From an uncultured Bacteroidales bacterium (GTDB lineage: Bacteria > Bacteroidota > Bacteroidia > Bacteroidales > Bacteroidaceae): 50,099 bases of DNA. The stretch is taken from the NCBI GenBank assembly GCA_902802265.1, contig CADCLN010000030.1:1-50099 (forward strand). Direction: 5' to 3'. Below the pieces are notes generated by a model. That model was given only the letters and a program-made list of their open reading frames with translations, searched no databases and was not told the origin of the DNA. Positions within the stretch are counted from its first letter, which is position 1; each line of letters opens with the position of its first letter. Positions 16,476 through 50,000 of this stretch are shown here, one piece after another. Made by a program: the position numbers and the translations under genes.

Positions 16476-16722
16476 TAAAAACAAAAAACGCTCATTGATA
16501 TAGACCGGGGGATGATAGATCGGGATACTCATCAAATTACATCAGAAAACCGGGAATGCGATTCAGTTAATGGCGGGCCACGCCTCCCTGTCGCCAGGTC
16601 TTCGAGCCTGGAGTTTCGGCGGGCATAGGTAACTCTTCGAGTCGGTGGATTACAAAGGCTGAACCTGCGCTCAAAACCTATAAGCTCGGAGTTTCATCAC
16701 ATCGCCTCCTCTGGTCTTTTTA
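16476..16722 (+). ncRNA. Structured non-coding RNA, 6S/Bacteroidales-1-like candidate
   Basis: About 245 bases follow a strong promoter and contain no credible coding frame. The ends can pair: 16502-16514 (AGACCGGGGGAUG) with 16700-16717 (CAUC, then CCUCC, then GGUCU). This closes the molecule just before a T-run. Inside are a hairpin CCAGG (16594-16598)/CCUGG (16607-16611) and a long-range helix AUAGGU (16625-16630)/ACCUAU (16676-16681). An alternative hairpin near the 5' end (GAUGA 16511-16515 with UCAUC 16529-16533) would compete with the closing stem. Overall size, closing stem and lack of linked gene resemble 6S RNA or the Bacteroidales-1 motif. It lacks the marks I would expect for tmRNA, RNase P RNA or SRP RNA. 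The name is inference. Confidence 0.6.
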
Positions 16723-41180: not shown

Positions 41181-41728
41181 ACATATCGCTCCGCGATGAT
41201 TAAACGAATGAAACGGATTTGGGAAGCACAAGAACCAATCCGTTCAATCCCTTCAATCGTTCCGCAGGAACATGTTGTTCAATCCCTTCAATCGTTCCGC
41301 AGGAACATGTTGATAAAAAAACATATCGCTCCGCGATGATTAAACGAATGAAACGGATTTGGGAAGCACAAGAATCAATCCGTTCAATCCGTTCAATCGT
41401 TCCGCAGGAACATGTTGATAAGAAACATATCGCTCCGCGATGATTAAACGAATGAAACGGATTTTAGGAAGCACAAGAACCAATCCGTTCAATCGTTCCG
41501 CAGGAACTTGTTGATAAAAAAACATATCGCTACGCGATGATTAAACGAATGAAACGCATTTTAGGAAGCACAAGAATCAATCCGTTAAATCCGTTAAATC
41601 GTTCCGCAGGAACATGTAAATAAGAAACATATCGCTCCGCGATGATTAAACGAATGAAACGGATTTGGGAAGCACAAGAACCAATCCGTTCAATCCCTTC
41701 AATCGTTCCGCAGGAACATGTTGATAAG
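41181..41728. repeat. Five-unit palindromic repeat array
   Basis: Units begin at 41181, 41321, 41425, 41522 and 41627 (periods 140, 104, 97 and 105). Each has: a short palindrome ATCGCtccGCGAT; a long imperfect stem whose left arm is AACGAATGAAACGGATT and whose right arm is AATCCGTTCAATC(n)GTT, with a loop near TTGGGAAGCACAAGAA; and a palindrome GTTCCgcaGGAAC, then a TGTTGATAA-like spacer. The right arm has one or two copies of a 9-base step. It runs right up to the GxxExxY gene, whose start is at 41739. A related piece lies beyond that gene and two more units are at 49.8 kb. Confidence 0.9.
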
Positions 41729-41738
41729 AAATTGTTTT

Positions 41739-42128
41739 ATGGTATATGAAGAAAAAACATATCAGATAATAGGAGCTGCTATGGAGGTGCATCAGCAACT
41801 TGGCTGCGGTTTTACAGAAAAAGTATATCAAGATGCAATGGAAAAGGAACTGCAATTGCGCAAGATTCCATACGGGCGCGAGGTGCGGATGCATGTTTCA
41901 TACAAAGGAGAAACATTAGATGCAGAGTTTGTCCCAGACTTCATTTGCTATAACAATATCATCGTGGAACTGAAGGCAGTACAGGAACTTGAAAACCTGC
42001 ATCGGGCGCAAACAATTAACTACTCTAAAGTGGCCAATGCGAAAGTAGCACTACTGATTAACTTTGGTACAGAATCTTTGGAATATGAAAGACTGTTCAA
42101 TCCTCGATTTAAACAACCAATCCTTTAA
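41739..42128 (+). CDS. GxxExxY family protein (PD-(D/E)xK-like)
   Basis: 129 residues from ATG at 41739; the frame stays open to an ATG at 41718 inside the last repeat, which adds seven residues. The name-giving motif is GFTEKVY near residues 26-32. A PD-(D/E)xK nuclease-like core follows: VPDFICYNNIIVELKAV (about 73-89) has Asp and the ExK pair, and QTINYSKVANAKVALLINFG gives the later helix and strand. Activity is unproven for this family. It is framed on both sides by the same palindromic repeats, which strongly links gene and repeat. Confidence 0.88.
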   Translation: MVYEEKTYQIIGAAMEVHQQLGCGFTEKVYQDAMEKELQLRKIPYGREVRMHVSYKGETLDAEFVPDFICYNNIIVELKAVQELENLHRAQTINYSKVANAKVALLINFGTESLEYERLFNPRFKQPIL

Positions 42129-42177
42129 ATCTGTTCAATCCGTTGTTCCGCAGGAACTTGTAAATAAACTTGTAAAT
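42117..42177. repeat. Partial repeat unit after the GxxExxY gene
   Basis: The last codons and following bases carry AATCCTTTAAATCTGTTCAA, then the GTTCCgcaGGAAC palindrome, then two copies of ACTTGTAAATA. This is the right half of an array unit, so the gene sits within the array. Confidence 0.75.
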
Positions 42178-43148: not shown

Positions 43149-43664
43149 ATGAACATTCTGATTCTACAAGCCTCGCCACGTGCGAATGGCAACACCGTCT
43201 GGATGGCGGAAGAGTACAAGAAAGCTGCCGAGGCAGCAGGCCACAAAGTGACACTGGTAAACGTCGCTAAGAAAAAGATTGCAGGCTGCCTGGCCTGCGA
43301 ATACTGCCACGGCAAGGGCAATGGCGCCTGCATACAGCAGGACGACATGCAGGAGCTTTACCCCCTGATGAACGAAGCCGAGGCACTGGTGCTGGCAGCA
43401 CCCATTTACTACTTCACGCTCTGTGCCCAGATACAGGCGCCCGTCCAGCGCATGTACTGCGTCAACAAGCCCGCCAAGGTAAAGAAAATGGCTCTGCTCG
43501 TGTCGTCCTATTCGCCAGGCGTCTATGACGGCGCCACAGCCGAGTTCCGCGACATCTGCAACTACTGGAGCGTAGAAAACATGGGCTTCGTCACTGCCAA
43601 GATCGACGAGCAGAAAACGGAGGAAACCAAGCAGAAAGTGATAGACCTTGCCGGCAAACTGTAA
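43149..43664 (+). CDS. Flavodoxin-fold NAD(P)H oxidoreductase
   Basis: 171 residues. The N-terminal LQASPRANGNT (about 6-16) binds FMN phosphate. CLACEYCHGKGNGACIQQDD (about 46-65) is the Cys-containing loop common in the iron-sulphur flavoprotein/NADPH-FMN reductase group. AEALVLAAPIYYFTLCAQIQ (about 77-96) forms the second flavin contact. Its C-terminal 73 codons are duplicated, with changes, at 45426-45644, so a larger duplication happened here. Substrate unknown; it is likely a quinone or flavin reductase. Confidence 0.86.
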   Translation: MNILILQASPRANGNTVWMAEEYKKAAEAAGHKVTLVNVAKKKIAGCLACEYCHGKGNGACIQQDDMQELYPLMNEAEALVLAAPIYYFTLCAQIQAPVQRMYCVNKPAKVKKMALLVSSYSPGVYDGATAEFRDICNYWSVENMGFVTAKIDEQKTEETKQKVIDLAGKL

Positions 43665-44300: not shown

Positions 44301-44331
44301 AATATTCTTGTATTTCTCGGCAGGTGTGGGC

Positions 44332-44925
44332 TCAGTCGATGATGGTCTGCGCCCAGAGGGGAATGTCGTCTGTGTAGCGCTTGAAGGGCTTGCCGTCGAT
44401 AGTGCGGTAAAGCAGACGAGGCAGCTGGTTATCTACGGAGTTGTCGTAAATGTAGGCGCGATCAACGAAGGTGATGGCTTTTGCCGCATTGGCGAGCGAC
44501 TTGTAGTAGCGCGTGATGATTTTCGAAATGGGCACCTCATGGCCGCCGTTCATGTAGCGCTGCGTGATGCGGGCCACATTGATGGTGGGATCAGAAGTGC
44601 AGACGTAGAACAGCTGGATGAAGAAACCTGCATCCTTGGCCTTGCGGAGGAACTCCAGTTTCTCTACGGACGAAAATACAGTCTCGAAAACGAAGTCGCG
44701 GCCTTGCTCCAGACAGTCGTAACGTTGCCGCGTGGCCACCTCGGCAGCCTTCAGTACAGCTTCGGGAGAATTCCAGTTGCCGAAGACTTCCTGCGCGATG
44801 TTGTCGGGATTGATGTACAGGCTGTCAGCCGTCCACTCGTTTTCAAGCAGCTGGATGGTGGTTGTCGTCTTGCCCGAGCCGTTGGGCCCTGCGACGATGC
44901 AGAGCGTGGGTCTTCTTGTTGTCAT
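44332..44925 (-). CDS. Zeta-toxin-like ATP/GTP-dependent kinase
   Basis: 197 residues. Walker A GPNGSGKTTTT (about 13-23) and the downstream NPDNIAQEVFGN (about 39-50) fit the zeta/PezT kinase fold. These toxins phosphorylate UDP-N-acetylglucosamine or related nucleotide sugars and so block wall synthesis; this one's substrate is not proven. The family's catalytic Asp and Arg may lie in DFVFETVFSS and ARITQRY. It overlaps its upstream partner by 4 bp and has a terminator. The chain looks intact. Confidence 0.85.
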   Translation of the reverse strand: MTTRRPTLCIVAGPNGSGKTTTTIQLLENEWTADSLYINPDNIAQEVFGNWNSPEAVLKAAEVATRQRYDCLEQGRDFVFETVFSSVEKLEFLRKAKDAGFFIQLFYVCTSDPTINVARITQRYMNGGHEVPISKIITRYYKSLANAAKAITFVDRAYIYDNSVDNQLPRLLYRTIDGKPFKRYTDDIPLWAQTIID

Positions 44926-45239: not shown

Positions 45240-45425
45240 TTATATCGCGCTGGCGGACGGGTTATAGATTCTTGACCAGCTGTTGGAATTGAATGCGGAA
45301 TTTTTCGTGTTGATGCTTGCTGGAGCGGTAACGCCGGCAGGATGTGCATAGCTGTCGGGGAAGATGACCAGGCCAGTCTTTTTGTTCACAATCGCCTTGC
45401 AGTAACGGTCTCCGGTGCGCGTGTT
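45240..45425 (-). pseudogene. C-terminal fragment of a secreted/surface protein
   Basis: An open frame on the minus strand ends at 45240 and reads YCKAIVNKKTGLVIFPDSYA (first part) and TAPASINTKNSAFNSNSWS near the end, then a stop. GLVIFPDSYAHP resembles repeat or paralogous domains in Bacteroidetes surface lipoproteins. The frame has no start and breaks at about 45425, exactly where the plus-strand reductase copy begins. It is a rearrangement remnant. Confidence 0.55.
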
Positions 45426-45644
45426 CAGCGCATGTACTGCGTCAACAAGCCCGCCAAGGTAAAGAAAATGGCTCTGCTCATGTCATCCTATTCCCCCAAC
45501 GTCTATGACGGTGCCACCGCCGAGTTCCGCGACATCTGCAACTACTGGCAGGTTGAGAACATGGGCCTTGTCTCTGCCAAGATCGACGAGCAGAAGACCG
45601 AGGAAACCAAGCAGAAAGTAGTAGCTCTTGCTGGCAAACTATAA
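45426..45644 (+). pseudogene. Truncated second copy of the flavodoxin-fold reductase
   Basis: It matches 43446-43664: the first 54 bases are identical and the rest differs at scattered positions, many of them third bases of codons. It codes for the C-terminal 73 residues only (from QRMYCVNKPAKVKKMALLMS). The FMN-binding N-terminus is missing, so no active enzyme can be made. The longer open frame from 45342 begins in the antisense of the neighbouring fragment and is chimeric. Confidence 0.85.
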
Positions 45645-49810: not shown

Positions 49811-49997
49811 TATTAAACAACGGATTTAACGGATTTAGGAGGCAATATTTGGTGCCCATCCATCCGTTAAATCCGTTAAATCGTTCCGCAGGAACTTGTG
49901 GATAAAACATATCGCTGCGCGATGATTTAACGGATTCAACGGATTTAGGAGGCAATATTTGAAGACAATCCCATCCGTTAAATCCGTCAAATCCGTT
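49811..49997. repeat. Two palindromic repeat units, same family as the 41 kb array
   Basis: The arms are AACGGATTTAACGG with CCGTTAAATCCGTT, 14 bp perfect pairing in the first unit. The inner linker carries GTTCCgcaGGAAC and ATCGCtgcGCGAT, which are the same two short palindromes as at 41 kb (one loop base changed in the second). The loop is GGAGGCAATATTTG, unlike the array at 41 kb. The VapBC remnant ends 17 bp before. Confidence 0.85.
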
Positions 49998-50000
49998 GTA

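Follow-up and report, generated by a model that had tools for sequence, protein, structure and literature searches.

The occurrence of a small GxxExxY gene directly behind a tandem array of palindromic units raises the question of whether the protein and the repeats belong to one system and, if so, how such a system would work. In the analyzed stretch of DNA (50,099 nt, referred to as the window), the gene occupies positions 41739..42128 of the plus strand, with a further in-frame ATG at 41718, and encodes a protein of 129 aa; in the window, it is flanked by a BspA-type leucine-rich-repeat gene and a gene for a pseudouridine synthase. Five units precede it on the same strand. Unit 1 (41182..41277) consists of the palindrome ATCGCTCCGCGAT, the left arm GATTAAACGAATGAAACGGATT, a loop, the right arm AATCCGTTCAATCCCTTCAATC, and the palindrome GTTCCGCAGGAAC. 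After it, a partial duplication of 35 nt (41277..41311, plus strand) repeats the end of the unit, with part of the right arm and GTTCCGCAGGAAC. The arms of unit 2 (41322..41417) align best among the five, the right arm of unit 3 (41426..41513) is shorter by about one of the cores described below, unit 4 (41523..41619) has the weakest fold (z -0.9), and unit 5 (41628..41723) adjoins the gene, with no left arm between it and the start codon. The units are spaced by about 97-105 nt, with ATCGCTNCGCGAT starting at 41185, 41325, 41429, 41526, and 41631, and GTTCCGCAGGAAC at 41259, 41294, 41399, 41495, 41601, and 41705, the copy at 41294 being part of the duplication. A half unit lies 3' of the gene, composed of a trailing right arm, AATCCTTTAAATCTGTTCAATCCGTT (42119..42144, plus strand), and another GTTCCGCAGGAAC (42145..42157). 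Since this right arm holds the stop codon (42126-42128) and no left arm precedes the start codon, the focal gene has one own arm only. Two gene-less units are found on the plus strand at 49.8 kb (49812..49898, with near-perfect arms, and 49908..50000). In the whole genome there are 8 copies of ATCGCTNCGCGAT and 26 of GTTCCGCAGGAAC, and none of the control patterns read backwards; these counts and the coordinates confirm the array of five units running up to the gene, with a partial unit after it, as it had been described in the first-pass annotation. An Rfam scan of the window gave no family match for the array. The sole match in the window was a Bacteroidales-1 RNA (suggested 6S RNA; 16504-16721, 94.5 bits), from which Bacteroidales is the probable order of the genome.

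The focal protein matches the families PDDEXK_3 (E 7e-40; 136.5 bits, cut-off 22) and TIGR04256 GxxExxY (1e-41; 142, cut-off 35). The G, E, and Y of the name motif, as well as D, E-x-K, and Q-x-x-x-Y, are invariant or at least 90% conserved in 37 diverse members. The AlphaFold2 model (pLDDT 95) gives Cas4 SSO0001 as the best PDB match (E 5e-5), with weaker matches to another Cas4 and to lambda exonuclease. The PD-(D/E)xK-like core, previously recognized from the letters of the sequence, is supported by the family match, the conserved positions, and the modeled fold, and the GxxExxY protein resembles, as far as the model goes, a compact predicted nuclease of the Cas4/lambda exonuclease type. 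The likeness to Cas4, lambda exonuclease, and RecB-like PD-(D/E)XK proteins concerns the predicted fold and the conserved D, ExK, and QxxxY positions. However, the focal protein has 129 aa when compared to 202 in SSO0001, it is encoded between a leucine-rich-repeat gene and a pseudouridine synthase gene, and it gives no PADLOC match, for which a defense system was also rejected as a candidate. A GxxExxY hit at a place where another program calls cas4 is mentioned in one paper (PMC8934634). Cargo of phages or plasmids was likewise considered and rejected; searches with the focal protein found nothing in 50,697 phage records and eight matches among 72,556 plasmid records.

How often GxxExxY genes elsewhere lie between repeats was assessed by comparing the 300 nt upstream of a gene with the reverse complement of the 300 nt downstream (inverted) or with these 300 nt directly, with a threshold score of at least 17. 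In the window's order, 72 GxxExxY frames were collected; after removal of 6 broken, partial, or alternative-start frames and 6 with a flank below 250 nt, 60 remained, including orthologous sites and the short genes L099 and L100. Inverted flanking repeats were found for 36 of these 60 genes vs 6 of 311 other open reading frames (ORFs) of the window's genome, and inverted or direct ones for 47/60 vs 12/311. When only one gene per orthologous site was counted, the numbers were 21/43 and 31/43, respectively. The second set was drawn from a multi-phylum sample, mostly metagenome-assembled genomes (MAGs), of Bacteroidota, Acidobacteria, Planctomycetota, Chloroflexota, Gammaproteobacteria, Verrucomicrobia, Methanosarcinales archaea, and others; of its 80 loci, 7 were dropped for short flanks. 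Here, 35 of 73 genes have inverted flanks, compared to 2 of 106 neighboring ORFs, and 41 of 73 have inverted or direct ones, with direct flanks in 3 of the 106 neighboring ORFs. Scores below 17 in both comparisons were obtained for 13/60 order genes and 32/73 multi-phylum genes. Among the six GxxExxY genes of the window's genome, three reach 17 in the inverted comparison and two more in the direct one. The focal gene scores 8.5 inverted, which is below the threshold, and 24.5 direct; L006 of the same genome has a direct score of 115, and L003 is below 17 in both comparisons. The association with flanking repeats is general for GxxExxY genes, which occur in many bacteria and some archaea.

Similarity of the arms also follows similarity of the proteins. 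For 80 genes, with 23 same-site pairs excluded, the sharing of arm 6-mers rises with the identity of the proteins (r 0.45; none of 2000 permutations was as high), and within the order alone r is 0.59, although such a correlation could also come from joint inheritance without recognition. The linked feature is not the pair of short palindromes, as had first been assumed. The 1.5 kb on either side of the other five GxxExxY genes of the window's genome contain none of the 26 copies of GTTCCGCAGGAAC, and in genomes G003 and G016, with 14 and 15 copies, none is on the same contig as a listed GxxExxY gene. As GTTCCGCAGGAAC is missing from other GxxExxY genes, it was ruled out as a cognate mark. A DUF4251 gene (L118, 3655-4134) is enclosed by a pair of inverted GTTCCGCAGGAAC units (inverted score 47), which indicates that the units can flank unrelated genes too.

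What the elements have in common is the architecture of their arms. In the multi-phylum set, the arms are chains of a core, C-R-C-N-R-A-G/T (e.g., CACAGAG, CGCAGAG, or CGCAAAG). The core pattern was written after the arms had been seen; with steps of 8-12 nt allowed, 187 of 195 steps are 8, 9, or 10 nt. Among chains of at least two cores, three 7-nt cores are commonest (28/45 upstream, 37/54 downstream). Such chains stand forward upstream and reverse-complemented downstream at 38 of 73 loci, vs 4 of 73 in the opposite sense. In 69 of 73 comparisons, the spacers of the two arms are of equal length (shuffled mean 25, maximum 38), and the base at core position 2 is common to both arms at a frequency of 0.91 vs 0.53 after shuffling. 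The match of spacer bases between arms is 0.48 vs 0.40 shuffled, a value reached by 295 of 2000 shuffles. The core variant and the spacing therefore agree between arms while the spacer bases barely do, which argues that core and spacing are kept rather than base pairing.

This bears on the earlier claims that the arms still pair well and that the hairpin is what matters. The first of them holds for the two units at 49.8 kb, which have strong DNA folds (z -6.7 and -4.5), but not for the five focal units, in which the arms have several mismatches and the single-stranded DNA folds are weak (z -0.9 to -2.5). The second was not upheld, as the spacer bases behave as given above and the strand bias of G-U mismatches is not clear. 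Over all sets, 173 sense and 149 antisense G-U mismatches were counted (p 0.20), or, set by set, 69/62/42 vs 49/62/38, the order set alone giving p 0.08. Hairpin covariation was, therefore, ruled out as the main evidence for gene-bearing elements. Pairing in these elements does not look like the selected feature; the repeated cores and their spacing are kept instead. In young gene-less units, the arms pair well, spacers included, an observation compatible with recent copying no less than with pairing.

The position of the genes relative to their neighbors is also characteristic. Both neighbors are co-directional at 49/56 order and 47/59 multi-phylum GxxExxY loci, compared to 102/193 control ORFs, all of them from the window's genome. 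Since the detected arms often begin within a few tens of nucleotides of the start codon, a promoter would hardly fit in between, and the gene is probably expressed from the host operon. No rRNA was detected in the 80 multi-phylum loci or in the window (Rfam, gathering score). In a Uliginosibacterium MAG, an int-alpA RNA (L225, 5108-5175) lies downstream of a GxxExxY gene, at a distance of about 1.7 kb.

A second gene family, the S23 four-helix-bundle genes (TIGR02436), has a similar arrangement. Inverted flanks were found for 39 of 65 S23 genes of the window's order (68 loci for 106 rows, with low-scoring rows, L157, and L159 unused, and 3 short ones dropped) and for 13 of 28 in genomes of other groups (28 of 30 loci used, from 63 rows). 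Within S23 arms, lag 7 gives an excess identity of 0.29 in either set, and lag 14 gives 0.23 and 0.29. A lag of 7 or 14 is the best one for 34/45 and 12/18 S23 arm pairs, and a lag of 8-10 for 29/40 and 36/40 GxxExxY arm pairs, the two families being partly compared within the same genomes. At S23 loci, both neighbors are co-directional in 58 of 61 cases. S23 proteins are encoded in intervening sequences (IVSs) of 23S rRNA, which are excised by RNase III, and in Coxiella tandem heptameric repeats stand just upstream of the S23 ORF of the IVS, as described in PMC4990558; the Coxiella heptamers are an independent match to the 7-nt S23 class. The balance tips slightly towards a wider grouping, in which GxxExxY and S23 elements, as sister classes, would together make up a large and so far undescribed superfamily of bacterial and archaeal mobile elements without promoters. 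Its features would be inverted core arrays with a family-specific step (8-10 vs 7 nt), sense orientation in operon interiors, and REPIN-like gene-less units, and the 23S rRNA IVS would be a special, rRNA-borne case. By eye, several congeners (L312, L313, L328-L331) also have period-7 arrays of the S23 type upstream of their pseudouridine synthase orthologue, in the gap that is occupied by the focal array in the window.

For the GxxExxY gene and its arms themselves, it is proposed, with a probability of about 0.6, that they constitute a small mobile element which works similarly to REPINs and their RAYT and uses a predicted PD-(D/E)XK nuclease. The alternative that survives best places the process at the RNA level. 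It assumes an IVS-like passenger, in which the arms pair in the polycistronic transcript and the hairpin is excised by RNase III or by the encoded protein; the passenger would persist because it is silent in RNA, and its spread may go through RNA. The sense orientation within operons, strongest for S23, is consistent with it, as are the RNase III-excised S23 IVSs with the heptamers matching the 7-nt arm period (PMC4990558) and the order-set G-U mismatches, which lean the right way. Nevertheless, we consider this explanation unlikely, as the spacer bases match barely above the shuffled level, the sense excess of G-U mismatches does not hold clearly over all sets, and the modeled protein fold is of the DNA-exonuclease type.

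The comparison of loci bears on the mobility of the proposed element. Two copies in one genome, L087 and L091, stand in two places and are 91% identical over 481 nt. Copies L062 and L096 are 80% identical over 551 nt between different neighbors; they have the same terminal palindrome at both ends and lie, by eye, between the stop and start codons of different genes. L062 is also similar, over the element only, to L094, L095, and L100. No clear target-site duplication was seen by eye at the compared copies. The junction between two 2-oxoacid:ferredoxin oxidoreductase subunit genes was compared in 30 congeneric loci, from matches in 38 of 41 genomes. As the loci were taken best score first, filled sites are favored, and the filled share is not a population estimate: 21 are empty, 8 hold a GxxExxY gene (all 8 profile-checked), and 1 holds an S23 gene. 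The GxxExxY genes at this junction have three arm types, ACGGAT, CACAGAT, and CGAAT, and the S23 gene (L289 / L256 in G015, at the same junction as L002) has TTAAGAATT arms of period 7. At this one polymorphic junction, the ancestral spacer is replaced, not simply interrupted. In G049, outside the 30 loci, the gap at the same junction is about 600 nt. An empty site was not obtained for the focal locus. The downstream pseudouridine synthase gene has a match in 40 of 41 genomes; at the 30 of these loci that were compared, the upstream neighbor, where visible by eye in 170 nt, differs from the leucine-rich-repeat gene of the window.

Filling of one operon junction at 9 of 30 congeneric loci, with the remaining 21 empty (again for the best-scoring loci first), is what could be expected of an intergenic homing endonuclease. 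Such an enzyme, with which a PD-(D/E)XK fold is compatible, would cut the uninterrupted junction of two conserved genes, and the repair would copy its gene into the same place. However, copies at unrelated junctions have only the element in common and not the junction, a homing gene needs neither inverted core arrays nor gene-less units, and one of the filled loci at this junction holds an S23 gene whose arms are different, which together make homing improbable.

Gene-less units are frequent. A Methanosarcinales MAG contains 16 paired units, of which 15 are gene-less (loops of 12-45 nt) and one bears a GxxExxY gene, and besides them 22 unpaired chains. Of the two full-length GxxExxY genes in this MAG, only one lies in a unit with CAC cores; the other has no CAC chain nearby. 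When core pairs were counted in ten genomes, they were found in nine, in most of them far above the control and in one near it, and one genome had none. Near-identical dispersed gene-less units with three ACGGATT cores per arm are present in G003 and G013, the latter, an 83% complete assembly, containing 58 ACGGATT core pairs, and none of its three full-length GxxExxY genes belonging to the protein cluster of that core. The gene-less units at L344-L350 in these two genomes are mostly framed by an outer inverted repeat (CTCAAATTTCGGAT / ACTTCCGAAACTTAAA) that lies beyond the core arms, and several are near contig ends, perhaps because such units break assemblies. Fragments of GxxExxY genes were noticed as well (G058:C39:5-163, G058:C121:46-141, G066:C158, and G066:C102); they look like decayed elements, the G058 pair standing beside core chains. 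That the repeats are spread by something else, and that GxxExxY genes merely reside in repeat-rich intergenic gaps, would agree with the abundance of units away from any GxxExxY gene, with the many units but no matching-cluster gene among the full-length hits of G013, and with other genes, e.g., the DUF4251 gene, between inverted units, but it has little probability, since such flanks occur at only 6 of 311 other ORFs of the window's genome, the period goes with the encoded family (mostly 8-10 for GxxExxY, 7 or 14 for S23) partly in the same genomes, and the relatedness of arms and proteins correlates.

In the preferred explanation, that of a mobile element with its own nuclease, the element would consist of a gene without room for its own promoter and two inverted arms, each with a core of about 7 nt, mostly in three copies, every 8-10 nt. 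The protein may recognize the cores of its own element as a spaced array and may cut at or near the arms. Cutting would then start copying or movement of the element itself, and gene-less units would be moved in trans. Transcription would be supplied by the host operon, and the orientation bias would follow from this. In the focal array, five gene-less units would stand beside a gene-bearing copy with the left arm lost, and the S23 genes, with their 7-nt step, would follow the same scheme.

The hallmark of RAYT proteins is a tyrosine transposase of the HUH/Y1 type (PF01797-type). Only PDDEXK_3 and GxxExxY match the focal protein; since the test for the transposase family fails, the element is not a member of REP/RAYT. 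Other properties of these systems are present, i.e., a gene flanked by its own palindromic units, for the focal gene by direct comparison only, and dispersed gene-less doublets of the same unit. In REP/REPIN-RAYT systems, a single gene stands beside its own palindromic units, which form tandem clusters and also occur as gene-less units presumed to be moved in trans, as described in PMC3116915. The likeness comprises a gene adjoining its own short palindromic units, the two inverted parts, the tandem clusters, and the dispersed gene-less units. The GxxExxY elements differ not only in the protein, which is of PDDEXK_3 and not of HUH/Y1 type, but also in arms built as spaced-core arrays, in the several distinct gene versions that are common per genome, and in the sense orientation within operons. 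The suggestion of the first-pass annotation that protein and repeats form one unit in the fashion of REP and RAYT is, nevertheless, supported by the link across phyla when compared with controls, the relatedness of arms and proteins, the dispersed gene-less units, and the model similar to Cas4 and lambda exonuclease.

With S23 IVSs, the elements have in common a small ORF between terminal inverted repeats that is transcribed in sense with its host (PMC4990558). The differences are the encoded nuclease fold in place of the S23 four-helix bundle, the surroundings free of rRNA at the 80 multi-phylum loci and in the window, and a step that is mostly 8-10 instead of 7 nt. Given the different encoded family and the lack of rRNA around the scanned loci, the elements are not S23 IVSs. 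Similar to MITEs and IS elements, they are short inverted-repeat units with gene-less derivatives, but the GxxExxY protein has no match to a transposase family and the copies no clear target-site duplication. No prior description of GxxExxY elements was found in the open-access literature searched, with most subscription journals and preprints outside its scope, and no report of them appears in the available parts of two papers on S23 IVSs (PMC5524665, PMC4990558). The GxxExxY elements look like an undescribed kind of mobile element.

GxxExxY and S23 proteins are widespread annotations for which no established role was found. If the protein indeed reads the geometry of the arms, both families gain a testable function, and a large body of unexplained intergenic repeats gains a source. 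The origin and spread of S23 intervening sequences would obtain a model outside rRNA, and a Cas4-like nuclease of 129 aa recognizing spaced cores would be a new minimal mobility enzyme.

Two further features of the window are worth recording. A small minus-strand gene at 44331-44925, by eye similar to a P-loop kinase or zeta toxin, is bordered on either side by strong direct repeats (direct score 70.5). The ORF at 45342-45644 seems to be a duplicated tail of the ORF at 43149-43664 (flavodoxin-like by eye), the last ~70 residues of both being nearly identical.
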